Shown: positions 1,637-60,140 of the stretch, piece by piece
Numbering within the stretch: the first letter of the stretch is position 1
Layout: every line of letters starts with the position of its first letter
Source: Pocillopora verrucosa
Lineage: Eukaryota; Cnidaria; Anthozoa; Scleractinia; Pocilloporidae
Reading direction: 5' to 3'
Assembly (NCBI RefSeq): GCF_036669915.1
Contig: NC_089317.1
Location: 434,001 to 498,000 of the forward strand
DNA length: 64,000 nt
Notes under the pieces: generated by a model
What the model was told of the DNA's origin: nothing
Database searches by the model: none
Seen by the model: only the letters and a program-made list of their open reading frames with translations
Program-made: the position numbers and the translations under genes

Positions 1637-3669
1637 ATGACTTCCCTGATCGAACGCGAACAAGCAAGTATAAAGAGCCCCAGAAGTCCTGGTCGACCGA
1701 GTAGTGGCCAGTTTAGCTTCAAGGGATCTCTATACGTGGCTCACAATGAGAAAGATTGGATCGAAATTCAGAAGAACACGTTCACAAATTGGTGCAACGT
1801 TCAAATTCAACCGTACGGTGTACAAATTACGAGTGATCTAGCTGAGGCGTTCCAAGATGGACTTTCACTTGTGTACCTGGTTGAATCGATTTCCACGAAG
1901 AAAGTTGGTCGATACAACAAGAACCCGAGGCTGTACGCACAGAAACTTGAAAATATCACCAGCGCTTTGAAGTTACTACAGAGCGACGGGATAAAGTTAG
2001 TCAACATTGGTGAGCTATTTAAATTGTTTCGTGACAGTAATGTACACACAGACATGCGAGACGACAACTGTTCTGCGCTTTTATTTACCTTTCTTGTTCT
2101 AAATGTGTCCATTGATACACAGACCAGTGTTAAATAAATATAACGGTGTGTCGAGATTCCTCAAGAACAACACAGCTTAAACATAAATGAGAAAGATATC
2201 TTCAAAGATACGATTCAAAATTTCCGCACAAGTTTCCAGTTACAAGGCAAGAGGTCTTGGGAATCACGCAAAAATAGCACGATTCCTCGCACAGCTGAAT
2301 TTGTTTTCCTCGTGGAATACTGATAGCTCGTTGTCTAAGAATACCCTATTCGTGAATACGTCGAATGCATTGCAAACAAGTTTCGAAGCCTTTCATCAGA
2401 TGCTTGCCAAATATTGCACGTGAATCGAATGCACGCAAATTGGAATCGAAAATAGGTTCTGTTAACGGTGAGGGAGTTTCGTATCTCTTGAGAATCTACT
2501 TTGGAAGTTTTAATCTGCAATGAACGCTACTTCTGTTGTGGCTGAAATACGCGAAAAACTTTCATTTGCTAAGAGACTCTGTAAAATATTTATAATATCG
2601 GTCTACCAGTTTCAAAGATTATAATGTTTACGTATAATTCCAAAACTATAGTTTTTAATTTTTCCCTTCAATTAATTCACAAAAGACCACGACCTTGAGT
2701 TCGGAAAAGACCACAACAATAACAAATTTAAAATTTTTAACTCACAGGGCGGTGAGAATAACAAAAGATAATTTTTTCCCGTTGTCTTCGTGTTTCGAAG
2801 CATCGATTTCATTTTTTTACTTCCCGTTGCCTTCATAGTTTTTTCCGGTGCGTTTTCCTTTTGTTATTTATTAATCGACTCTGCCTATAAACATTCAAGG
2901 AACGACGATTCTCTTTAACTGAATACTAACGCTTCCAGCTTTCTTAAAGACTCTACGATATGGCCGATCGTTGACTGTGGTTACTGCAAGAATCGATTTT
3001 CACAGCTTATATTTTTGTTGAATATCGTGGCGACGTGACACTGGCCGGGTGTAGACGAACTCCAATCTATCCAATAAGAAACAATCTTACTCCACTTGAT
3101 GCCTTTAGTCTCGACGCACGTACAGACAATAAACTCTTCCAAAATTGTTTTTTCTTTTTTTGCTATTTTATACCGCTAAATCAACGTGGGGGAAAGCGGC
3201 AGTTCGTTAACCAAACCACAACTTTCGTTTAATCTTTGTCAGTTACTGAAATTAGTAATTTTTTTACCTAATGCGCCATACCGTTGAATATATATTGCAC
3301 CACATAGGGTTTAATAAATATTGGCTTTGCAACAAGGCACTTGTTCGCCCTTTTTGCTTTGCAAATTAGTCAAATCAGACCTCCTGCAATTTTTTGAAAG
3401 CAGAACATCAACACAGCAAATTAAACGTTAAGACATCCAGTCCAAAATATTTCGTAAGGCCACATATTGACGATTCTCGGAGAAGTAAACTCTCGTTCAA
3501 GACAAAAAAGATCCTTTCCCGCTAGCTTGCGTAAGAGTCGTTTCCGTTTCCTGTTAGCCAAGCTGAATAAGCGTTAGATAAACAAGAGGTGGACGCAGTC
3601 AAAGACCTCATTTTTTTTTTTGCGCGCATGCACGAGAGTTCGTTTGTTTTTTTCTTCATAATGAATAAA

Positions 3670-3714
<45 letters not shown>

Positions 3715-6700
3715 TATAGCAGGTAGTTTAGTGTTAACAACTGGGTTGAAAACGTAGATTAGCCACCGTAAAGAGTAAAAAAACGTCAGCTTTTTTACTC
3801 TTTACGGTGGCTAATTTACGTTTTCAACCCAGTTGTTAACACTAAATTACCTGTTTTTTTCTTCCTCTGCCACGCGTGATTCCGCTCACTGCTCGATTCT
3901 CTTGTTAGGCCGAGGAAAGGAAAAGAATAATGCCTAGGGAAACTCTCTCCCTTAGGAAGAATAATCTACTCGATTTGGCAGTAAACTCTCACCGGTCTCT
4001 CAAGGCGGTGGAGGAGAAAAGAGATATCGATTTGAATGCGATCCCTTGTTTCATAATTTGTCAGTTAGTCTTAGGAACTAAGAATAAGTCATTTTCGATA
4101 CACTTCTGAATAGCAAAGGGGGTGAGTTTCTAAGGTAACTGTGGTGCTGCGACGGTGGGAAAGTATAACAGGGTAATTTAGTATCATCAACTGAATTGAT
4201 AACGTAAATTGACCACCGTAAAGAGTTCAAAAGCAACGTATCGAGCGTCAGCCCTTCGTCATTCGCTCTGACAAAGAGCTAACGCTCGAAACGTCAGCTT
4301 TAAAACTCTTTACGGTGGTCAATTTACATTATCAATTCAGTTGAAATACTTAAGTACCCTGCTGAATACTAAAACTTCCTTCGTTGATTTTATATTTTCC
4401 AGGGAACGAGGACATTGCCAATGGGAACGTGAAGCTAATTCTAGGTCTAATATGGAGGTTAATCCTTCACTATCAGATCAGTTCAAGTGGCAGCGCCTCA
4501 GGCAAGCAGCTGCTGTTGTTATGGTTGAAAAATGCAATCCCTGACATGGTAATCCGGAATGTGACAACGGACTGGAACGATGGTAGAGCTCTGAGCGCCC
4601 TCAACGAGTTCTGCCAACCAGGTCTGTGTCCAAACTATAAGAGTCTAAACCCAGAGGCAAAACTGTCGAACACGAGCGATGCCATGAATGCTGCTGAGAA
4701 AAACTTCGGCATCCCGAAAGTTCTTTCTCCGGAATTCTTCGTCAGTCCGTATGTCGACGAATTGAGTATGATGACGTATTTGTCGTATTATACACAACCG
4801 GGCTCCATCGGAGAAAAACGAACACTGCAATTTATCAATGATTCGGCACCAGGCTTGAACGTGCGTAATTTCAACACCGATTGGAATGATGGAAAGAAAT
4901 TATTGCAGTTTCTTGAAGCTCAGTGCCCTGGAATTGTTCCAGGGTACGAAAATATTGATCGGAATAGTCCGTTAGAAAACGCTAAGCTAGGGCTGGATAT
5001 CGCGGAGGAGAAATTCGGAGTAAGGAAAGTTTTAACCCCGGAGGAACTTGTCAGTCCCGATGTGGACGAGCTCAGCGTCATGGCGTATATGTTGCAATTT
5101 CGTACAGCTGATAAACTGCAAAGTCATGCGCACATCTTCAAGGCGGACGGCAACGGAATTAAGCGGGGAGTTCGCGGGAAAACTTCTGAGTTTTTTATAT
5201 ACGGTCGCAAAGATATCGGTTTTGATGGGGTACGTGTCCATATCCGAGGTCCGGACGGGGAGGATTCCGTGCCAGTAGAAACACAAGTTGAAGCAGACGG
5301 CTCTCTCAGGTGCAAATTTGTTCCCTTTGAAAGCGGCATTCACACGATCTCTGTAAAGCACTACGGTAAAGAAGTCCCTAAGGGCCCCTTTCAAGTGATG
5401 GTGCATGAGAACGTGGCAGATGTTACGGTTTCTGGCGTAGGGATCAAGAATGCTGTCGTCTTCAAACCGGCAGAGTTCATTGTTCAAACCAACGACGAGA
5501 ATTCCCCCCCGGTCTCGGCGGTAGTAGAAGGACCGACCAAAACAGCGAACTGCAATATGGAACCTCTTGGAAATGGAAAGTGGCGGGGATATTTTGTACC
5601 GCGGGAAGTGGGAGAGCACAAGATTCGCATTGAGGTCGGAGACACACCCCTGCTCGGAAGTCCCTTTACAACGAAAGTAGGAGATCCAACCAAGTGCAAT
5701 GTAGCTGGGAGCGGTGAGTGAGTGATGCTAGCTATCAATTAAGTCACGCAATACTTTGTCACTTAACAAATTATCATGTCACGTGAAGAACACAGTTGCA
5801 TAACGTGAAGGCGATTTTCGGTGTTTAGCAAGTCATTTAGTTGCTCAATTATTTTTCATTTTTTTTCCCACAGAAACTGCTCGCAACCCGACCATAGGAC
5901 GTCCCTCCTCCTTCGATGTTGATACTTCCGGGGCGGGACTGGGGGAACTGGCTATCCAATGCCGAGGCCCCGTAGGGAATGTCCCTGTCGACGTGAAACC
6001 CACTGCACCCGGACGATACAACGTATCGTTTACTCCTAACAAGCCCGGGGAATATAATATTCACTTCGTATTCAACGGGGATGACATACCGGGAAGTCCA
6101 GTCAAGACGATAGTGAGTGATCCCAGCCGGATTGTAGCTCACGGAGATGGTTTGCATCAGGTACGACGTCAGGTTCTGTTTATCATCATTCCTCTTTCCT
6201 CATTCGGGAGTCTTGGTCAAACCAAATTTTTTGCAGTCATCTCTGTCACGCACAACAATAGCTACGTGTGTCCAAGGTCTAAGAAACTCTCAGCATTTGG
6301 ACCACAGAAATTTACGATTTTTCTCGAAAACCAACGTCAATCTCTCAATCAGTCGGATGCAAAACTTAAACGACTCGTTACTCGACCAATCGCTTTCTCC
6401 CATTCTTCAAGCAGTTTGTTTGTTTTAACTTTGATTTCTGGTTGGCTCCTTACTCCTTATCGTATTCACTCCTGTTCTAGTTTTGGGCTTACAGCACTTA
6501 ATCTAAAGTCCTAACTACTACACAGAAAATTTGAAAATCATTGATTTACTTCGATAATCTATCTCTCCACAATTACAGGTTACTACAGATTCTGAAGCAG
6601 AATTCTTCATTACACTTCATGGCGCTGGTGATGGAGAACTGAAAGTGTATGGCGAGGCTCCATATGGGCACTTTCCTGTGGATCTGCTACAGTCTCCTAA

Positions 6701-37600: not shown

Positions 37601-38702
37601 GGAAAGATCAGCATGCTAATTTACAGGTGAGATATTAACTCAATTTTGCTCCACAGGAGGAACTTTAGATATCACCGTTCACGAAGTTAATGCTGGTGAC
37701 GGACATATTATTGAAAAACACTGTCCCTCTGGCGGTACCTTTGGTGGCATTCATGTTGACCAAGAATTTGAGCAACTGATGATAAAAGCATTTGGAGACG
37801 ACTTCATCAAAACATTTCAAGAAGAATTCCCGAGTGACTGGCAAGTCATAATGAACCGCTTTGAGGAACAGAAGAGGGCAGAAGAGGAAGTGGACAACGA
37901 TGAAATTAGTATCGCTCTCCCTTTAAACTTTATAAAGTCTTGTCATCATGACATTGAAGAAGATGATGATGCTATCAATGAGCGAATTCGGCGATCTTGC
38001 CCTGACGATGTGAGTGTTAGCAGCGACTATTTGAACATAACCATGGGAATGCTTGGCAACCTGCATCGTCCAATTGTGACCAAGATTGCGGGGCAGATGA
38101 AAAGCTTGCTCGCTAAGCAAAGTCTTCAAGATGTAAAGACAATTTTTCTCGTCGGTGGTTTTTCTGAAGCTCAGTTTTTAAGGAGGGAAATTTCCCGCTG
38201 CTTTCCTGACAAACGCATTCTTATACCACCAGATCCCCAACTCGCCATTATTCGTGGTGCTGTAGAGTTTGCCCAAGAACCGAGTTTACTTCGAGCCAGG
38301 GTCATGGGTAAGACATATGGTTTAAATACCTGTATTGTGTTCGATCCTGAAAAACATCCGCTCGAGAAACGATTTGTTAGTCGAGAGAAAGTGTACTGTC
38401 GTGACATTTTTAAAACCCTAGCCAAGAAAGGGGAACGAATAGACATTGACGAGAAAAGAACGTACAATTTTTTTCCCATCAATCCGGATTCGACGGCATT
38501 TTCTTTCAAGTTCTACAGCACAGACGAAGATGAAGCTGACTTTATCTCCGATCCCGGAGTGGTAAGTGAAAACGTCGAAATTTTAATTCCCAGTCCTAAT
38601 ACTGCTAAGGGATGTGACCGAGAATTAAGGGTGGAAGTAAAGTTTGGTGGCACGGAAACCAACGTTCAGGTCATCGATGTCGAGTCAGGTAATGTTAAAA
38701 TG
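31465..38702 (+). CDS. HSPA12-like atypical Hsp70, last exon not found
   Basis: Exons 31465-31773, 36693-36944, 37197-37374 and 37657-38702 join in phase to 595 codons. The fold is the Hsp70/actin ATPase of the HSPA12A/B type, which lacks the canonical Hsp70 substrate-binding domain. Phosphate-1 loop: DFGTTYSG (16-23). Phosphate-2 loop: GGGTLD (246-251). Adenosine motif: VGGFSE (412-417). Human HSPA12 proteins are about 675-686 residues. The start ATG has a good context (AACCATGG). The model ends at ATG|GTATGT, so a short terminal exon should follow; a candidate acceptor before 39066 would give only ISRSR and stop, which I do not trust. Intron 1 is 4.9 kb. Confidence 0.88.
32610..32745 (+). 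repeat. Tandem array of four CCAAT-bearing units
   Basis: Units of the form CGCACCAATCAGATxxx...TTAGGGTATGT repeat every 32-36 bases. CCAAT cores lie at 32622, 32654, 32690 and 32722. Units decay towards the right. This is either a decayed minisatellite or a CCAAT-box (NF-Y type) cluster. Confidence 0.7.
34868..35024 (+). repeat. 58/59-bp tandem repeat, ~2.7 copies
   Basis: Units starting TTAGTTACTGGC/TAGC at 34868, 34927 and 34985 are ~85-90% alike. The last one runs straight into the tRNA-like SINE head, so the array may belong to the 5' part of that element. Confidence 0.75.
35020..35215 (+). mobile_element. tRNA-derived SINE
   Basis: The tRNA-like head has an intact pol III B box (GGTTCAAATCC, 35052-35062) preceded by GCAGAGGTCATA and followed by CGCGTGGGC, a T run and a non-tRNA body. 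The A box is degraded. The layout matches tRNA-derived SINEs seen in coral genomes. Confidence 0.6.
36158..36181 (+). repeat. Interstitial telomeric tract, four TTAGGG units
   Basis: TTAGGG is repeated four times, the last unit losing one G. TTAGGG is the metazoan and cnidarian telomere repeat. The tract is intronic, so it is interstitial rather than a chromosome end. Confidence 0.8.
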
Positions 38703-39619
38703 GTATGTCTTCAACTCGTTTCCACATCTTTGGTTCACTCCCGTTTCTATTAGAACTATGCTGAGTGGACCAATGTGGACCCTAATATTTACTTTAAGAG
38801 AGGTTAATCAATATTCTAATTTTAGAGACTTGTTACCCCACCTCTATAATCGAATAAACAATGACTGGCTTAAGGCCGAAATTTTAATCATCAAGGGAGG
38901 ACACAAAAGTCAATTTTCAAACTTTTAAACAGCGTGTGGCTTCGGCGTTGCCATCTTGTAGAAGCGTAAATCGTGAGCCAGAGGTCCTGGGTTCAAGTAT
39001 CAAGCCATCGATAGGGGCTTTTATCATGTTTTAATACGTTAGATATGAATTTTTTTTTATTACAGATTTCTCGGTCCCGTTAGTCGCTATACCTTAAACA
39101 CTACTGAGAGTAAATCGATCCTATTTTAATGAACATTTTTGTCAGCTTACATTGCATGTGATATTTGGTAACATTGACTCGTTTAGGTAAGGCAGCTGAG
39201 ATTGATTCCGACAGTTAGAGTCGTATTTTAGTCAACGGCCCTTAGGGGAACACTCTTATATTTTCATTTTAAAAAAATGAAGTTAAATGTAATAATTTTA
39301 AATTTTTGATCAGCTAAATTCATGCACCATTTATAATCATGTGCAAGAGTCACACAAGTAGGTTAAATGTAATATCAAAACAGTGCTGATTGCTATCTGC
39401 AATCAAGTTGGTTCTTTTACACTATATATCGAGTAGTATGTTTTAGTCCGGTATATCTTTGTTCGCGGTTAAGAATACTGCATAATACCACATATTTTCT
39501 TCGGAAGATGGGCTCATATAGGATGTCCTCCGATACGAAATTGTTAGAAAGGAACTTTTTAAATGCGAGCAAAACTTAAGCTCTATTAGGTAATTTAGGT
39601 AATAAATACTAAATACTAT

Positions 39620-39722
39620 CGCTCTGACGAAGGGCTAACGCTCGAAACGTCAGCTTTTTTACCCTTTACGGTGGCTAATTTACGTTTTCAACCCAGTTGT
39701 TAACACTAAATTACCTGCTATA

Positions 39723-39767
<45 letters not shown>

Positions 39768-39770
39768 TTT
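39620..39770 (-). repeat. Hammerhead-associated repeat, copy C
   Basis: Relative to copy A this copy is inverted and single. It carries the complete hammerhead-like core on the + strand at 39624-39654 and ends CTTTAGAAACTTACCCC. Confidence 0.8.
39624..39654 (+). ncRNA. Candidate minimal (dimer-type) hammerhead ribozyme
   Basis: In order: CTGACGA (fits CUGANGA), an extra A, helix II GGGC-TAAC-GCTC (four pairs, one G.U), GAAAC, then GTC at the cleavage position, followed by AGC. The outer CTGACG/CGTCAG ends are also complementary. Helix III would be only ACGU with no loop, so a single copy cannot fold classically. Hammerheads with nearly absent helix III that cleave as dimers have been described in Penelope-like elements. 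The extra base before helix II is a reason for caution. Confidence 0.4.
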
Positions 39771-40480
39771 AAGCTCTATTACTCGATTTTAGGTCGAAAT
39801 ATTAGCACACCATTACGAACGAAACAGTTGTAAAATGCAATACTAAGAACAAATAAATCCGAAGAGCTATATCCATTGTAAATATGAGGTAGATGTTACA
39901 GACAAATACATATTTTTAGAATGAAGTTCGGATATAACGCGCGCTGTCATTGGTTGAAAGAGCGTGCTCTATCAGAGTACAAAGCAAAGAGCTGAGCTAA
40001 AGCTGTCACGCCATCTGATGCAAACCTCAGAAGTTACATTGGCCGCGCTTCAGTGAACAACTAAGAGCTTTCCGTGATATCATTTCCGATGCGTTGAGTG
40101 GAAGGCCAAATCAAACTTCGCCTTGCGCAGTCTCTGTACATGAGACTTTCAGATTGTGTGCAAGAGACTAAAAAAACCTCAGGCAAAAGTGTCGAATTCG
40201 ACCTACCGAACTATCTCAGTTTGCAAACTACTGCAGACTGTGAACTTGGATGGTTTGACATTTTTGACAGCTCTAATCTTGTTCAACCGCTTAGATTATT
40301 TAGACTATTCCAACAAGAATTCTGATTAGCTTATTGTAACGTGCTTGATGAGAGTACAAAGGATGGTGACATCGCTGTTGTTCGCTTTGCAAATAAAGTT
40401 TGCTTTGAAAATTGAAAGTAATGCGTGGGGAATTTAACGGATTCTTTGTTATAGACAACCCTTGACTGTGCTCTGTTCTG

Positions 40481-42745: not shown

Positions 42746-45700
42746 CTAACTCACCGTATTGTCTGAAAAGCATGCAGCTACTTTATCTCCTCTTGGACTC
42801 CACTGTACTTCAAATACACCCCCATTACCATGGTAACTATGAACTAGCGTGCCAGTCTAAAGAAAAATGAAAACAATGTATTAATAAACACATGCTACTT
42901 ATCTGCGACTGGCTGACATTCAGGTTCGATTTTCAAACGGGAATAAAAAAAAAAAAAAGCCCGGTTTGTGAAAAGAACACGCGAGGAGCACCTAACTTTT
43001 CCTGACGTGTTTAAAGTGCGTCCTTGTCCTATTCCCATCACCCGTTTGCGTGTCTCCTCGTTTGCGCGCGCGAGATTAATTCGCTCATATTCACTTTTCT
43101 AGGGAGTCTTGGGTCTCAGTTCATCGTTACTTCTTTTCCTTACAGCTGTTAATTTCTTTGATAAACTGGAATTAGATCAAGGTTGCACCCTCTTACCTAT
43201 ACGTTCTTCTGTTAACCCTTTAATTTACATGAGTGACCGAGACAGAATTTCTCCTTACAATATCAATACAATATCAACCAGATAAGTGGTGAGAATAGAG
43301 AGAAATTTGAATTTGGGGATAATTAGTTGATCCAATGCTAAATTCTCTGAACTAACATTATAGGAATTGTACAGTTGATAGTAAGGAGAATTACAAATTT
43401 GATCTGGGAGTTAAAGGGTTAACATCACCCATTTGCTTAAGATGCCCTGGAACTGTGAGGAAAAGTCGATTATTGATCACCAACTGGAGTTAAAGGGTAA
43501 AAAAAAAAAAAAATTTCATTGTCGGAAAAAGAGTGAATATATTCCCTACCTGTGTTGACCAGACATTCAGTGCCCTGTCAAAAGACCCTGATGCAATGTA
43601 TCTGCCATCGGGACTAAACGACAAAGAGTGCACTGCTTCTTGATGTTTGGAGAGAGAAAGAACACAGGAGCCACGCTCCAGCTCCCATAGTTTGACTGTT
43701 GTGTCGTATGAAGCACTAAAACACAATAAAAACATCACAGTTTAATTACAGTTACATGAGAAGTTTGTTATTGTAAAGCCAAAAGGTAAATGACAGCCTA
43801 AACAAATCTCTATGTACAACTGTTTTACATCATAAATTATCAAATCATGATTGGTATTCTCTCGATGAGAAAGATTCCATATCACTAGGTGATTTTTTTC
43901 TCATTGTATGGTTACTATAAGAAATTATCAAGGGGGTGAATCCTCCATTTGTGTCTCACAGGTATCTGGACACATTCCACGCGGTTTATAATCATAAATT
44001 ATTTCTCTGCCACAAGCAAGGGGTGGATGTAGGGGGTGGAAGGGGCATAAGCCACCTGGGATCTTATCCATCCCCAATCCCCATCATACTTTTTAACTTA
44101 ACAAGCTTATGACCAAAACCGTTTTAAGAGATACACAGGCCTTGGTTGTTTAATGTCTGAATCTTTTAATCTGTTATGTTGCGAACTGGTCACCAAACCC
44201 TTTAACTTCCAAGATATGGGCCCAGCTGTTTGAAAGCCAATTAGTGCTAACCCAGGGTTAAATCTTAATCCAGGTTTCTTTACTCCTTTATTCAAAAGCC
44301 TTTTACTAGATAGTTTTCTCTATTATTCATGGAGCACCCAGTTGTCAAATTGTATACAAAAAGAATTCTACTGAATTTTTTTTTTAAGCTTTCAGATCTG
44401 AAATCAAATTCCTCACTAACCCTGGGTTATCCTAACTCATCTTTGAACAACCTGACACTACTTGTGAATTCTCCCCTCTAGCTTCTACAAATTTCTTTGC
44501 AAAGTAGTAATAAGAATTTGGTGTTCGATCAAGACAACAGTTTCTACATGATCAGTTGGAGATTCCTTATTACCTCTTTGTTGGATTGTGTATTGATGTT
44601 GTGAGGAGGGATAAGTTACACACTAAATAATTCCGAGAGTTGATGGGTTAATAACAACGATAATAACACACAATCTTTCAACTTGTAAAAGAACAAAAAA
44701 AAAAAAAAAAGGTTACATTAAAATTTCATGCAGCATACCTTGCTAAGAGAAGAGGTGCATTAGGAAACACTGTTGTTGGTCCTGTTGGACTCCATGTTAC
44801 TGTATATATTTCTTTTTTATGACCTTGGAGATCAAACAACCAGGTATCTTGTTTGGTGCTCCATATCTAAACAAATAAGAGGTTTGATACATTTAAACCC
44901 AAATATCAGTATGCATATTCTCCATACTGTTCTCTGTACATTTACAAAGGTGCTGGCAAAGAGAATTTGTTGCACAATCAAGACCTCCTTCAGATCGCAT
45001 CATTTCCTGTATTCTTGTGACCTTCATGATGAAAATGTGTGATTCAAGGGTGATATTGTAGGTAGATATTAGTCAATCTCAAGGGTTCAGGTAAATCTTG
45101 AGCTTAGAAAGCTTTGACAGTGTTCTTGGATAGTTAAAGGGATTCACATTTGATCATTATTGAGAGTCAGATGCTTAAATATTCATTATGAAAGGGTTAA
45201 GAATAACACCAAATTGGCCCTTTACACCTTAACATTAACCCTTTAACTCCCACGAGTGACCAGGAAAGAATTTCTCCTTACAATATCAAGACAATATCAA
45301 GCAGACAAGTGACGAGTATAAAGAAAAATATCAATAAGGGGATGATAAGTTGATTAAATACTAAATTCTCCAAACTAACATTACAAGAACTGTATGGTAG
45401 ATAGTAAGGAGAGTTACAAATGAGATCTTGGGAGTTAAAGGGTTAATACTGTTATTCTCCTCACTTTTCTCTTAGCAGTACATATGGCACTGACAAAGAG
45501 AATTTGTTTGACAATCAGGAGCTTCTTAAATTGGTGATTGTTTCCTATATTCTCCTGTCCTTTACATTTAATTCAAGGGTGATACTGTACGGAGAAATCA
45601 GAAGCCAATCTCTCTTAGAGTTTAATCACTTACCTTAGCTGATAGATCATCTGAACATGATGCTAGGAAAGACCCTGATGGATCCCATCTAATTGTATTC

Positions 45701-48700
45701 ACTTCACTCTGTTAAAAAATCAATAATGGACAACAGCAAATGAGTATGGCATACATGTACATGTTAGATGTGCATCTCTTTGACGAAGTTGCCCTATGTA
45801 GACCCAATACTGGGTCCTTTTCTACTAAAACATTATCAGACAATCATTAAAAAGCACAAGAACAATAATCAAATGGCACAAAAACTACAAGTGCATGCAA
45901 ACTCACAGTGTGTCCTTGAAATGATTTGACAGGTTTTTCAACTCCTATTTTACAGACATGTATGATTTTATCGGTTGAACAAGATGCAAAACTTGTGTTG
46001 TTTTGCCAGTCTACATCTAGTATGGGGGCTAAAAAAAAAAGGTAAACAAAATTAATTTCTATTTGTAAGAACAAGTTGTACATACATTCATAAAAAAATC
46101 AAGAGAGGAGATAATGGAGAATCTGTGTTGTTTACAATCATAAACAAAAATTCAGTTTTGTGGCAAACAGGGTTAATTAATGTTTTAAAAATAAATTTAT
46201 CTTCTTTACCTTGATGGAAAGAAAATTGCTGTTTAACTTCCCAGTTATTTGAGTCCCAAACAAAAGTGCTCTGGAAATAAAACCACATTTTCAAAAATAT
46301 ATATGATTACTCTATCAAGAGTATTATGTAAAAATACAATAATTTTTTGATGGTTTTATAGTTAGGACTTTTACCTTATCCACTCCAGCACTTATTAGAT
46401 AGTTTCCTTTCTTGTTCCATTTGATGGAAAATATTGGTCCTTTGTAATCACCTAGTGTTTTAACCAGCTCCCCTGTAAAGAGAAGAAAATTACTGAACCT
46501 GCTTGTTGCACAACACAGAAGTAACCCTTTAACTCCCATGAGTAATCAATAAAAGTGATTGACAAATAAGTTCCCCTTAAAAAATTGACACAATATAAAG
46601 CAGGGTAGTTGTGAGAAGAGAGTAAAACATCAACAAAGGGTTTTCATTTAATTTACCATGTAATTCTTAAAGCTAAAATCATAATCAACATATGGCCAAC
46701 AGTAAGGAAATTGATTTTGAGATCTTAGGAGTGGAAGTATTAAATATCATGTTTCAGAACAATAATTAAATTGTTAGATGGTGTTACCTTCTGGAGACCA
46801 AATCCTTGCCTGCCCATCACATGAACCTGTGGCTAGCAGAGTTCCATCATTCTACAGAAAAAGAGTTAGGTAACAACCATTCCTTTTTCTAAAAAGGAGT
46901 CACCACATTTGTCTGGGTTAAATAAGTTACAGTAGCTGTAACTCTAACAAATGAAATGCAAAAAGGGGGAAAGTTTCTAAAGAAACTGCAGTGCTGTGTC
47001 AGTAAGGGAGTACAAAAAGATAATTGGTTCTATAAACTGAGTTGAGAATGTAAGTTGGCCACGGTAAAGAGTTGCAAAGCTGATGTTTCAAGTATTAGCC
47101 CTTCATCAGAGTGAATGGAATGCAAGTAATGAAATGCAAGTTTTGGTGGCTCAATCACAAACTAAGGATGCAAAACATGGGTAAAAACTAAGTGCACAAC
47201 TTACATTCCACTCCAGACACGTTATATCCTTGGTTGTATTTTTATGGTTTTCTAAATCTTTGAATTGATGACGTAGAATGATAGGTGTTCCTATTCCTGT
47301 CTCATTTATTGGCCACAGTCTTGCTGTACCATCTCCAGATCTAACAGTGTGAAAAATGTGTAAGTATGTTTTTTACGAAAAAACTATTTGGCTAAATAAC
47401 TAATGAAATTGCCACAACTTCTGATAAAAGGGCTGAGATTGTTTGTCCTAAAAGGGATTTGGAAAAATTTTACAGAATAAATCAAGAGAATCAAGACACC
47501 TGCACCTTCAGAAAAAGCCACTATTGTTTATTGGAACCACAATTTGCCACAAAGATGAAACACCACAAAATATAAAAAAATCCATAAATATCTAAAACTG
47601 TCTCTCTTCAAGAAACTCTGACTGTAGATGTCCTCTTTTACAGCTTAACATTCTTTTGAATTCTAGAGATGTAGTTGAGGATAAGATGATAAATAAATAA
47701 AAAAGCAATATCACATAATTAAAAGATGTCCCTATTTGTAAAGAAAGTCTACAACATGATGTTTGAGCCACTTAAGCAAATTTTCAATAGTTTATACTGT
47801 TCAGTTCATGCTTTGCTGATTTCAACTTACCCAGATGCGAGTATATCCTGAGAGGGATTCCAAGAGCACACAAACACCTACAGGAGTTGTTATGCAAATG
47901 TTAAACACAACATACCTTTGAATGAGCATACAATGAAACATAGTATTACAGCACTGGATGCTTAGAATACATGTACATGTAACCACAGGGAGCTAACAGA
48001 GTCAGGCAGTCAACTGATACATATTCAAACACAAAGTACAGGTAAATTACAGGACAGCAAGATCACACAAACTCACACAATCACACTAAAGGAAAAAGAA
48101 AGAAAATAAACAGAAATATCTGCTGATATTCCAGGCCTATGCTTTTTTTACACCTTAAACAGATAATTTGGTGAGTATTTTTTAACAAGTTTACCAGCAA
48201 ATACAAGCAGTTCTACCTCATGTTCATGGCCTTTCAATATCAATGCTTTGTTGTTCCCTGCATCATTAACTGTGCCATCGATCTCCATCATCTCACCATG
48301 TCCCATAGAATTGACATGAGCATAATGTCCATCCTCAAGTTTTATTCCAATTTCTGGTTTCATCCCTCGATTATGTAACAATGTATGTCTTGTGGTTACT
48401 ATGTCTGGTAAGACAGCATCAATGAGGGAAACATGATCTAGTTCACTGCCGTCATCAAGTATTGTTCCATCCTGAAAAAGGGAAGCATTGATAGAAAAAT
48501 CAGGCAATAAAAAATACGAGGCACCTAGTTAAATGGCATCAAACCTCTCTAACAGACTTAATCTGTTGACAGGTGACACATGTTGCCTCAGTAAGGGATA
48601 AACTGTCTACTTATAGCGAAGCTTGTAGAGCGTAGCCCCATAATTATACAAAATAGTAGTAACCCATCAAGCCGAAAAAATTTGGATGTATGACCATATG

Positions 48701-52386: not shown

Positions 52387-54826
52387 ATGGGTCGAGTTAT
52401 CAGAGGCCAGCGTAAGGGTGCTGGGAGTATTTTCAAATCCCATACAAAACACAGGAAAGGAGCTGCAAAGCTCAGATCTCTCGACTACTCTGAACGCAAT
52501 GGTTACCTTAAGGGTGTTGTGAAGGAGATCATCCATGACCCTGGACGCGGTGCACCGTTGGCTATTGTTAGCTTCAGGGATCCATACCGATACAAACAGA
52601 GAAAGGAGGTTTTTATTGCCACTGAAGGCATGTACACAGGGCAGTTTGTGTACTGTGGAAAGAAGGGTAAGAATTCTGTTGCCATGAATCTGGCATAATT
52701 AATATTAATAATATTAATTATATTTATTTGAGTTCAATTATGTTCAGATATGTACCGTGCTGGAAACAAATTCCATTCTTGATGTGATAGCCCTCTCTGC
52801 TTTAAATTCAGTCACTAAATTAGAGGCAGTGTGCATTCAAGGGATGTCATTAAGTCCATGCAGAAATTAGTTCCTGAATTTTTCAAGTGATGTAAGAACT
52901 AATTGCAGGAATGAGTCGTGAAAAAAGTCTGTCTGGACAACAAATGCTGGGAAAACTACCTGGTTATATCTTTCATTAGCCTTTTTATCTTTCTTCTCAA
53001 GGCTTCTAATCGCTGCAGTGTCTTCTAAATTTTCTTTAAAAGTGTAGGATTCTTTTTACCATTTAACTCTTGAGTGTGACCAGTATTTAATTTCTTTATG
53101 GTCACAAGAATAAAGGAAATGATCACCAACAAAAGAAGCTCTTGATTGTTTGACAAATTCTCCTTTTCAGCACCTTAGGAAATATATAGAGAACAGTATG
53201 AAGAATATGCCTACCAGTGTTAGGTAAAAGGTTAACCCTTTCACTCCCACAAGTGACCAAGACAGAAATTCTCCTTACAATATCAATACAATATCAAGCA
53301 GACAGGTGATGAGAATAGAGAAGAATATCAATTATGGGATTATTAGTTGATCCAATACCAAATTCTCTGAACTAACATCAAAAGAATTGTTTGGCAGATA
53401 GTAAGGAGAATTACTAATTAGATCTTGGGAGTGAGGGGTTAATAAAAACCAATTAATCTTCAGTGAGAAAGGGGGGAAAAGTATTATGGTAGCAAAGTAC
53501 AAGTTGAAAGACATTCATTGCTTTGCATTTTGTTGTTTGGTGTGTTTCAGCAACTCTACAAATAGGCAACTGCTTACCCATTGGTGCCATGCCAGAGGGA
53601 ACTATTGTCTGCAATGTGGAGGAGAAATCGGGAGATCGTGGCAAACTAGCCCGCACATCAGGAAACTATGCCACTGTTGTATCACACAACCAAGAAACTA
53701 GGAGAACCAGAGTGAAGCTTCCCTCTGGAGTCAAGAAAGTCTACCCTTCTGCTAACCGTGCCATGGTGGGTATTGTTGCTGGTGGTGGTCGTATTGACAA
53801 ACCTATGCTGAAGGCAGGACGTGCTTACCATAAGTACAAGGCCAAGAGGAACTGCTGGCCACGTGTCCGGGGTGTGGCTATGAATGTGAGTATATGGAAC
53901 TTTAAGTATTAAACACTCTTTTAAATGTATTTTGCAGAGGACCTCAGGAGAGTTCATGTACTGCTGGTTACCAACTTTTGTCTTAAGACTATGGTTAGAC
54001 TTCTATGACTTGACTTTTGTGAAATTTTTAAGAGTTTTAAGATAACGGCTGTTACTCTTTAGCTCCCATGAGTGACCAAGACAGAATTTCTCCTCATAAT
54101 ATCAATAGTTTATCAAGCAGACTATTGACAAGAATAAAGAAAAATATAAATTAGGGGTTGATTCAACAATAAATTCTGAGAACTAACATCATAAGAATTG
54201 TATGGAAGACAGTGAAGAGAATTACTGAAGAGATCATGGGAGTGAATGGATTTACATTTCATAGGCACCTTGAAACTTTTCCAGGAGCATAGTTATAATG
54301 GATCAAACATTTTCTTTTTGGCATAAAAATTCTACATCTAGGCACAGACTGAATCAACAAAATTCTAGCTTTTTAAAATTTCTGTGTCAGTTTTACCACC
54401 TTCATCAAGGTCTGGTCAATAATCAATGTAAGAAATTCATACAAAGTGATATTTATAGTCTGGATATATACCTCTCACTAAAGAGACCTGATTGGTTTTT
54501 GTGTTTGATTCCTTAGTCTGTTCAAACTTTGTAAGGAGACAAATAGTTGTGTTTTCAATGTCAAATCTTTTGAATGACCATTTAGACAAGTTTAAGCACT
54601 CTTTTAAGTGAACACTTGTCACTGTTGTTCTTATTTGCTTCTTGCATTTTTTCCACAGCCTGTGGAACATCCTCACGGTGGTGGTAACCATCAACATATT
54701 GGTACCCCTTCAACTGTGCGCCGAGACACATCAGCTGGAAGAAAGGTCGGTCTTATTGCCGCCCGTCGTACTGGCCGAATCAGAGGAGGAAAGAAAACTT
54801 TCAAGGGAGACAAAGAAACAGATTAA
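52387..54826 (+). CDS. RPL8: Ribosomal protein L8 (uL2) of the large subunit
   Basis: Coding exons 52387-52666, 53551-53885 and 54659-54826 join in phase to 260 residues; animal L8 is about 257. It begins [20 protein letters not shown] and contains the uL2 core [17 protein letters not shown]. The highly conserved peptidyl-transferase-side loop reads [20 protein letters not shown], with the split falling exactly at the exon 2/3 junction. It binds 23S-like rRNA near the peptidyl transferase centre. The ATG is the first in exon 2, just downstream of a splice acceptor. Introns 2 and 3 carry MITE copies. A poly(A) signal follows at 54849. Confidence 0.97.
53060..53236 (-). mobile_element. Second TTAA-ended MITE family, copy in RPL8 intron
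   Basis: Reverse orientation of the 44910 family: TATGGTCACAAGAATAAAGG and TTTGACAAATTCTCC blocks in the same order, ending AAAAGGTTAACC, where it shares its end with the adjacent 211-bp MITE. Confidence 0.55.
53232..53442 (+). mobile_element. piggyBac-like MITE, copy 5
   Basis: 211 bp, TTAACCCTTTCACTCCC ... GGGAGTGAGGGGTTAA, in the first intron within the RPL8 coding region. It is the copy closest in sequence to those at 43212 and 45235. Confidence 0.85.
54051..54253 (+). mobile_element. piggyBac-like MITE, degenerate copy 6
   Basis: GTTACTCTTTAGCTCCCATG ... ATGGGAGTGAATGGATTTA; the TTAA ends have mutated. It lies in the last RPL8 intron. Confidence 0.65.
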
Positions 54827-55530: not shown

Positions 55531-56526
55531 ATGTCAGGCAATAAAAAATTACCCTGTCAAAAAGAGGCTTGTGCTATCCAGAAGTGCTTGCAAGGTAATC
55601 TCGTATAATGAATAAAGGGTGTAAGTTTCTAGAGAAACTGTGGTGCTGCGTCGGGGAAAGAGTAAAGCAGGTAATTTAGTGTTAACAACTGAGTTGAAAA
55701 CGTAAATTGGCCACCGTAAAGGGTAAAAAAGCTGACGTTTCGAGCGTTAACCCTTCGTCAGAGCGATTGTATAATCTCGTATATAATCTCGTATACAATC
55801 TTGTATATAATCTCGTATAATTGCGAGGCGCCTAATTGTTCTTAAGGCTACTCACACGTAAACGGGCAATTCATGGCTAGGTAATTCCGAGGTCCAAGTT
55901 TTCTCATACTATTGTTACAAACTTATGAAATTACATCAGCCACGAGTATTGCTCCTTTTTTTAACACAACTATTAATGCTGATCATGAACATTTCTACTC
56001 GCTTTGTACAGTACAACTGGTTTGAATCTAGGAGTGATATTTGATGGTGTACTCTGATCGTCTAAATAGTCCTGGAAAAGGAAGGACTGTGTCGGTAATA
56101 GTACGTGACTTTGATGACGAAAATTCACTACTACAGACAACAGTCCTTCTCAGGACTTCTCCGGACGATCGCAAGAGACGATAAAATTGACTAAGAAAAA
56201 GACCGTGAATTGATTGGCTGTAAAGTTTTGGATGTGGGGGAGGGGGTGGTGGGGGAGGGGGTGGTGGGGGCGGGGGTGAGGGGGTAGGGTTTGGTGTGGG
56301 TTGAAAGATGGAGATGTATGGACCATCAAAATTAAACCATGCCTTAAATATAATAGTTTGATGATAATTATTAGTTCATATCTTTATTTTCCACCAAGAA
56401 TATAATTATCAAGAGGACAGGTGCCAACATGTGATTAACAACATGAAGAAATGTTGTCAAAAGATTTCAGCCATAAACACTGAACTGTGCTTGGGCTTCA
56501 AACAGAACTTGAGCAGCAAAAAGTAA
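55531..56526 (+). CDS. CMC4: CMC4, twin CX9C mitochondrial intermembrane-space protein
   Basis: Two coding exons, 55531-55594 and 56399-56526, join in phase to 63 residues starting MSGNKKLPCQKEACAIQKCL; human CMC4 has 68. The twin CX9C motifs are CQKEACAIQKC and CQHVINNMKKC, with additional Cys residues conserved in the family. Such coiled-coil-helix-coiled-coil-helix proteins are imported into the mitochondrial intermembrane space by the Mia40 disulfide relay. Both exons are too short for simple ORF detection. The exon 1 donor is GTAATC and the exon 2 acceptor CCACCAAG. The intron carries a hammerhead-associated repeat, a short AT-rich tandem repeat and a G-rich tract. AATAAA sequences follow near 56745. 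Confidence 0.88.
55605..55765 (+). repeat. Hammerhead-associated repeat, copy E
   Basis: Single copy in the CMC4 intron. The minus strand at 55761-55732 has the intact core CTGACGA ... GAAAC-GTC with helix II GGGT/GCTC. It runs into an ATAATCTCGTAT tandem array (about five units, to 55825). Confidence 0.8.
56235..56290 (+). repeat. G-rich tract, quadruplex-forming
   Basis: Nine or more runs of four to five G separated by one to three bases (GGGGGAGGGGGTGGT units) lie on the + (mRNA-sense) strand of the CMC4 intron, ~110 bases before the exon 2 acceptor. This greatly exceeds the minimum for a G-quadruplex. Confidence 0.85.
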
Positions 56527-56814: not shown

Positions 56815-57024
56815 TTAACCCATTTCACTAAATGTCAGTTCCCAAGGTCTCCACACTGTTCTCTTTATGTTTTCCATTGTCCTGACAAGGAGAATTTACT
56901 TAATAATCAATAGCTTCTTGACCTTGCGATTATTTCCTTTATTCTCATGACCTTAATGTTTGATTTAGGGGTGATACTGGTAAAAGAAATTAGATGCTTA
57001 TCACTCTCAGGGATGAAAGGTTAA
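56815..57024 (+). mobile_element. Second TTAA-ended MITE family, intact copy
   Basis: 210 bp from TTAACCCATTTCACTAAATG to CAGGGATGAAAGGTTAA. It is the most complete copy of the second family, between CMC4 and the SLC22-like exons. Confidence 0.65.
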
Positions 57025-59534: not shown

Positions 59535-60140
59535 GAACCATATGATGTAGTATTTATTCTAGGTAAGGATAAAATATTAGATCCTCTAAGTTTATAATTT
59601 GTGTTACGAGTTGTAAATAAGTCCTTAAATAGGATGGAGCAATATTATTCAATGCTTTATATATTAGTATAGAGATATTTTGGAGCCTATGATTGTAAAG
59701 TGTAGTCTTATTAGCCCTATTTAAGAGGTATTGATAGTCGTTTTCCTTATCCTGAAAAACACTTCGAAGAGCACGTTCATGTAGTTTTTCAAGCTTATCT
59801 GAATCACTCTTTAGACAAAAGTGCCATACCTTAGAACAATTACTAGGATGTGATAAAATGAAAGAATGATACAACTGTAATTTAGCATCAAGTGGAATAA
59901 GACATTTAAATCTATTAAAAACACTTATTTGTCTGCTAATTTTGCGGCAAAGTCCAGCTATATGTTTATGAAAGTTTAGTTTTTTATCTATAGTAACATC
60001 CAGTAGCTTGATATAATTCTCTTGTTGGAGTTCCTGACCATCAACTTTGAACCTGAAATCAATGGAAGATCGTCCAGGGGCCAGGTCAAAACCTTGGAAT
60101 TTGTCTGGATTTTCTTTAAGTGAGTTTTTCCTTAAAGTTT
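59535..60140 (-). mobile_element. LINE reverse-transcriptase C-terminal remnant
   Basis: Read on minus, the frame gives VDGQELQQENYIKLLDVTID, then LNFHKHIAGLCRKIS, then LQLYHSFILSHPSNCSKVWH, then DKLEKLHERALRSVF. This is the characteristic tail of non-LTR (jockey/CR1-like clade) ORF2 after the polymerase core. The upstream polymerase core is absent and the frame has a premature end at 59554, so it is a 5'-truncated dead copy. Confidence 0.8.

Follow-up and report, generated by a model that had tools for sequence, protein, structure and literature searches.

A hammerhead-like core within the pLTR of a Penelope-like retrotransposon in the coral Pocillopora verrucosa

The hammerhead-like core found in a dispersed repeat of Pocillopora verrucosa lies in what is almost certainly the pseudo-LTR (pLTR) of a Penelope-like retrotransposon (PLE) that was active recently. 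The element is of an already known kind, and the genome suggests how many of its short copies arise. Our overall explanation, in which a Penelope pLTR, short cDNAs and a dimeric hammerhead are combined, is very likely in our judgement.

The core was identified by direct reading of the window, that is, the whole stretch of 64,000 nucleotides that was analysed. At 39624-39651 on the plus strand the letters run CTGACGA, A, GGGC, TAAC, GCTC, GAAA, C and GTC, with GCT before and AGC after. The position names given to these residues follow what we take to be the usual hammerhead numbering. The parts of the core are as follows.

39624..39651, plus strand: hammerhead-like core, read directly from the window letters
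39624-39630, plus strand: CTGACGA
39631, plus strand: extra A
39632-39635 with 39640-39643, plus strand: helix II
39644-39647, plus strand: GAAA
39649-39651, plus strand: GTC, with the expected cut after 39651

An earlier note, made from the letters alone, had described CTGACGA, a four-pair helix II, GAAAC and GTC in hammerhead order, and the reading confirmed this, with one G-U among the four pairs of helix II. The CUGANGA, GAAA and NUH boxes of a hammerhead are therefore all in order, with helix II between them. Two departures from a hammerhead were found, both of which the note had pointed out. The extra A is real and stands as a spare base between A9 and helix II, and there is no helix III, only the self-complementary ACGU (ACGT in the DNA), which could pair between two copies. 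Helix I has three pairs only. With a descriptor written post hoc (boxes, helix II of at least four pairs, helix I of three pairs, one spare base allowed), matches in the window were obtained at 39624(+) and 55761(-) only, and 9 of 200 dinucleotide shuffles contained a match (mean 0.05). The motif by itself is only moderately improbable and its two matches are copies of one repeat, so that the case is carried by the evidence from the family.

The five copies of the repeat that had been counted in the window were found again as five insertions, or seven copies when the arms of pairs are counted separately. Three are solo copies; the other two, at about 3668-3851 and 4118-4361, are inverted, head-to-head pairs. 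The next-best profile match in the window beyond these seven had an E value of 0.24.

39618..39768, plus strand: solo pLTR copy with the hammerhead-like core (profile search; 100% identity over 152 nt to other genomic copies)
39576..39588, plus strand: 5' target duplication TTAAGCTCTATTA of the 39.6 kb insertion (score 13, reached by 2/1500 random controls)
39769..39781, plus strand: 3' target duplication TTAAGCTCTATTA of the 39.6 kb insertion
39742..39768, plus strand: last part of the tail, where an AC-rich stretch is followed by a 6-bp hairpin (AGTTTC TTTA GAAACT) in the computed fold, at the 3' end
55605..55768, minus strand: solo pLTR copy with intact boxes, one C of helix II having become T, which leaves a G-U pair; target duplication of 14 nt (1/1500 controls)
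46966..47116, minus strand: solo pLTR copy of greater age, in which the boxes are intact and the core has decayed at CpG; target duplication of 12 nt (2/1500 controls)
3668..3784, minus strand: left arm of pair 1, tail present, core absent
3786..3851, plus strand: right arm of pair 1, without tail, beginning near the expected cut site; pair 1 has TGTTTTTTTCTTC on both sides (2/1500 controls)
4118..4258, minus strand: left arm of pair 2, tail present, core mutated
4262..4361, plus strand: tail-less right arm of pair 2, in which G8 is changed; target duplication of pair 2 weak (score 8; 62/1500 controls)

Between the 5' target duplication and each solo copy lie short repeats of 29, 39 and 11 nt (39590-39618, 55768-55820 and 47116-47130), which partly resemble the target, as though the polymerase had stuttered.

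The box residues are intact in the copies at 39624, 55761 and 47109. The last of these has a weakened helix II and ACAT instead of ACGT. In the 4263(+) arm G8 is A, its partner, the 4261 (minus) arm, lacks C3 and has GATA instead of GAAA, and the arms of the 3.7 kb pair begin within or beyond the motif. Boxes kept while the rest drifts had been taken as a sign of selection, a reading that fails within the window. When the 47109 and 39624 cores were compared directly, all five differences fell within CpG dinucleotides, and boxes are broken in other copies such as the 4.2 kb pair. For these reasons we see no sign of selection in the fact that three copies of the window have kept their boxes.

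We also inspected the gene setting of the insertions. The 39624 copy sits between the ORF at 37620-38753(+) and a minus-strand WD40-type gene. The 47.1 kb copy is on the same strand as the WD40-type ORFs, of which 43490-43741 scored above the Pfam cut-off, 46324-46545 scored below it, and 47151-47372 gave no match. The ORFs on either side of the 3.7 and 4.2 kb pairs are 1637-2137 and 4402-5721(+), the latter of which matches CH and Filamin (Pfam), and the 55.7 kb copy is antisense to the CMC4 exon at 56368-56526(+). The earlier note had placed self-cleaving RNAs in introns of filamin, TBL1XR1 and CMC4. As stated, this is not upheld, because the 39624 copy is outside the introns of all three genes as far as visible, the copy near CMC4 is antisense, and the copies in the filamin gene are mutated or truncated.

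Other repeats are present in the same window. A second dispersed repeat of about 224 nt occurs at 43211-43434, 45234-45457, 53231-53454 and 54054-54245, with copies about 77-87% alike, and carries recurring similar ORF peptides. A family of 75-nt direct repeats (44916-44990, 45453-45527 and 56845-56919) is 71-73% alike. On visual inspection the ORF at 59554-59874 (-) resembles the C terminus of a LINE reverse transcriptase; it has no Pfam match.

The identity of the repeat was revealed by searching the genome (353 Mb in 52 contigs). A query with the 161-nt repeat gave 825 candidates, and all 40 that were scored matched at 98-100% over at least 152 nt. The exact 35-nt motif occurs 740 times, against 0 for the control, and the stretch starting at AGC has 691 genomic copies. 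The earlier note had proposed a search for a Penelope reverse transcriptase (RT) beside the copies; at the locus L045 a 599-codon open frame that matches RVT_1 and GIY-YIG is followed by the pLTR. The RVT_1 match is above the cut-off (E 1.5e-8), and GIY-YIG matches of 20.1 and 22.0 bits (E 2.1e-4 and 7.9e-4) are just under the cut-off of 22.6. The RT of this ORF, judged by eye, is presumably of the PLE type; a PDB search with it gave no match. The link to Penelope-like elements thus holds, since the genomic element whose pLTR contains the motif matches both RT and GIY-YIG. Exact and loose patterns of the motif had no match in viral and prokaryote contigs apart from 13 seemingly unrelated ones. 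The sequence was also looked for in the text of papers, which gave either no match or two papers on other topics.

The association of the core with the ORF was assessed with the endonuclease end, for which 150 of 2452 candidates were scored and 151 matches were reported. The 30 best matches were picked irrespective of the motif. The loci studied are not all independent: L049/L050, L061/L062 and L064/L066 are neighbouring copies, near-identical flanks are found at L023/L024 and L032/L033, and L059 and L063 have a flank in common. A core with intact box residues was present downstream of the stop codon in 29 of the 30, at 94-97 nt in 28. In L055, C3 is changed. In L063 (C11, minus strand) the earlier core is interrupted by a fresh insertion and an intact core lies 45 nt further on. 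The interrupted core is broken just after GAAAC by 16 AT-rich bases plus a fresh pLTR copy, and the insertion thus adjoins the expected cut position.

The layout of a long copy, pieced together from L099 and L059, was read by eye as an inverted tail-less pLTR, a direct pLTR, the ORF and a pLTR with tail, with a common 13-nt flank AAAATCTAGTTGA. Its endonuclease end belongs to an open frame of 949 codons, which is presumably the same frame as that seen in L099. The first in-frame ATG is about 228 nt beyond the core by hand count.

Close head-to-head pairs make up 12 of 30 full-pLTR loci. Target duplications scoring at least 12 were detected in 9 of the 12 pairs, compared with 1/720 controls, and in 5 of the 18 other loci, not all of which are true solos, compared with 11/1080 controls. 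The second arm lacks the tail in all 12 pairs, ending at 96-107 in ten and at 68 and 70 in two. These features, namely head-to-head pairs, target duplications and an optional tail, agree with the published Penelope anatomy in excerpts of PMC3846280. There, the Penelope families of Adineta vaga are likewise described with direct pLTRs flanking the ORF, an adjacent inverted pLTR, a tail on a single arm, a target duplication, solo pLTRs and a TATA box in the pLTR. The target duplications of A. vaga are 8-10 bp, whereas those found here are mostly 12-15, and its tail is 31 bp compared with about 55 nt. Hammerheads are not mentioned in that paper.

Two sources of the pairs were considered and set aside. 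Twin priming on one RNA was rejected because both arms of a pair cover the same RNA segment. As for cleaved RNA as a template, in none of the 12 pairs does the second arm begin at the cut (position 33); the start points lie at pLTR positions 1-12. Pair 1 of the window differs from these, in that both of its arms (3755-3805) do begin near the expected cut.

Close neighbours among the first 100 listed places of the 691-copy count were 21 head-to-head, one tandem and no tail-to-tail. Such an arrangement argues against a metazoan retrozyme, made of tandem 220-350 bp units with canonical hammerheads that give circular RNA. Type I hammerhead retrozymes of 220-240 bp have been reported in stony coral (excerpts of PMC7229834). 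The short tandem repeats and canonical hammerheads of a retrozyme were not found here; instead the core is of the minimal PLE type, and 22 of 30 loci have their 5' end where the motif begins rather than at the cut. We therefore consider a retrozyme highly improbable. According to the same excerpts, more than 6000 type I motifs occur in Acropora millepora, of which 1508 are canonical and the rest resemble minimal PLE forms; this is a likeness to the core described here, as the study itself deals with canonical tandem retrozymes.

The ends of the pLTR copies proved to be sharply defined. In 30 loci selected for a full motif match, a sample that misses shorter copies, upstream homology halts 1-3 nt before CGCTC in the 22 loci mentioned above and extends for 6 to 189 nt in the other 8. 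AAT precedes 454 of the 740 exact motifs and CTCTAAT precedes 124, the latter an underestimate owing to UTR variants. Of 30 ORF-linked copies, 29 retain a TATAAA sequence, which lies 31 nt upstream of the common 5' point. The 3' ends of these 30 copies are at 97-104 in 13, at 152-161 in 16 and at 87 in one, and the optional tail lies between the two clusters. For most sampled copies, then, the start is a single point 31 nt downstream of a TATA box, and the end is near +100 or +155. From these sequence features we infer that transcription would start between AAT and CGC, and that solo pLTRs would be short cDNAs running from internal start sites to the 5' end of the mRNA. Searches of the literature on Penelope pLTR start sites and on Penelope hammerheads in corals, with PMC7229834 and PMC7761336 among the papers, gave no statement of a PLE start site at the hammerhead.

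Sharp common 5' and 3' ends and numerous near-identical copies would also be expected if the copies of about 152 nt formed a SINE-like lineage of their own, non-autonomous, derived from separate source genes and moved by the PLE. We regard this as improbable, since the solos end downstream of the TATA box and so have no evident promoter, the ORF-linked copies use the same two 3' sites, and the ORF-linked pLTRs are nearly identical to the solos. Short cDNAs of the PLE itself are the preferred source.

We then considered whether the core is a ribozyme. Its reduced helix III and possible action as a dimer, as proposed in the earlier note, agree with what reviews, in excerpt, say of PLE hammerheads; one of them states that all available PLE sequences show minimal hammerhead motifs. 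The PLE minimal hammerheads of Lunse et al. (2017), as partly described in citing papers, have the same boxes and a reduced helix III, are located in pLTRs and are proposed to form dimers; the core described here may differ from them in its extra A between A9 and helix II. An active precedent with the same extra A, between A9 and G10.1, is the plus-strand hammerhead of chrysanthemum chlorotic mottle viroid, whose rate is moderately reduced by this base (excerpts of PMC3705267). The viroid hammerhead has full helices and an unrelated context, unlike the minimal core.

Conservation of the core was examined in the young ORF-linked copies, where all essential bases are present in 29 of 30. Changes in the core (4/840) are fewer than in the UTR (57/2636, p 4e-4) or the body (24/1558, p 0.026), and do not differ significantly from those in the endonuclease end (26/2910, p 0.28). 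Helix II is nearly invariant within the lineage, and no compensatory pair was noticed by eye. A more distant sample consisted of 20 divergent loci hand-picked among the 150 scored (protein identity 73-87%). Most of the core was visible in 17 of them, and all essential bases were kept in 5. G5 is changed to A in six (L087, L088, L089, L091, L092 and L098, reading CTAACGA or CTAATGA), three of which are one clade on one contig. Judging from these sequences, lines with a dead core may have spread. Because of the six G5-to-A copies, cleavage may be unnecessary for insertion, in agreement with PAc, the Poseidon element of Anolis carolinensis, whose hammerhead mutants inserted in vitro all the same (excerpts of PMC11167929).

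The same G5-to-A changes would fit a motif that is inactive in this lineage, kept as a plain hairpin or as a sequence for the pLTR start site or cDNA joining, with its hammerhead look due to descent. Computed folds are in line with this, as the isolated RNA favours an inactive CUGACG/CGUCAG hairpin; two such hairpins have -26.7 kcal/mol compared with -12.3 kcal/mol for the double hammerhead, the latter calculated without tertiary contacts. The covariance-model search suggested in the earlier note returned no hammerhead match from Rfam at E values up to 10, either in the whole window or in the 161-nt stretch. Matches to snoR125 and MIR7502 near 3.7 kb, below the gathering score, were dismissed as self-folding of the inverted pair. 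In addition, the joints of head-to-head pairs are in the motif region, and the arm spacing is an identical 62 nt in 6 of the 21 listed pairs, which points to a favoured joint. On the other side stand the essential bases kept in the young copies, the generality of minimal hammerheads in PLEs according to the reviews, and the PAc hammerhead, which is reported in excerpts of PMC11167929 to cut in a C3/G8-dependent manner. An inactive motif is, in our view, unlikely without being far-fetched. Catalysis by the core is likely from its sequence, and it is fairly probable that, in transcripts with two pLTRs, the predicted core can form a dimeric hammerhead that cuts between GUC and AGC, probably with help from the element's protein.

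PAc provides the closest parallel for a mechanism. According to excerpts of PMC11167929, its ORF likewise comprises RT and GIY-YIG, and a hammerhead adjoins the region in which the ORF starts. RT initiates there at two sites in an AC-rich stem loop, between which the tail lies, and both target strands are cut and extended. The PAc hammerhead cut only when protein was present. The PAc core overlaps the start codon, in contrast to the distance of the first in-frame ATG from the core noted above. By analogy with PAc, the hairpin at 39742..39768 is the likely site of internal RT initiation.

We propose the following scheme. Pol II would begin between AAT and CGCUC, 31 nt past the TATA box, so that the mRNA opens with the hammerhead. 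The element's RT would initiate internally at one of two sites, about 100 or 155 nt from the mRNA 5' end, as in PAc, and would run to the mRNA 5' end to give short solo copies. Head-to-head pairs would arise when both cut target strands are used, or by fold-back of the cDNA. For this combination of Pol II start, internal RT start and strand use or fold-back we see the chances as balanced. In transcripts with two pLTRs the core would cut between GUC and AGC as a dimer, probably with the element's protein. Somewhat more tentative is the proposal that the hammerhead lies at the extreme 5' end of PLE mRNA and that the minimal hammerheads scattered by the hundred through the genome are short-stop cDNAs.

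The 740 exact motifs with their sharp 5' and 3' ends offer a concrete and testable picture of where the motif lies in the mRNA and why orphan copies are abundant. The window copies resemble dead-end insertions, which corrects the idea of ribozymes placed in host introns. If the scheme is true, an mRNA with one pLTR would yield a solo pLTR only and a full copy would require a transcript with two pLTRs; the hammerhead, by acting on such transcripts, would choose between full-length and dead-end insertion.
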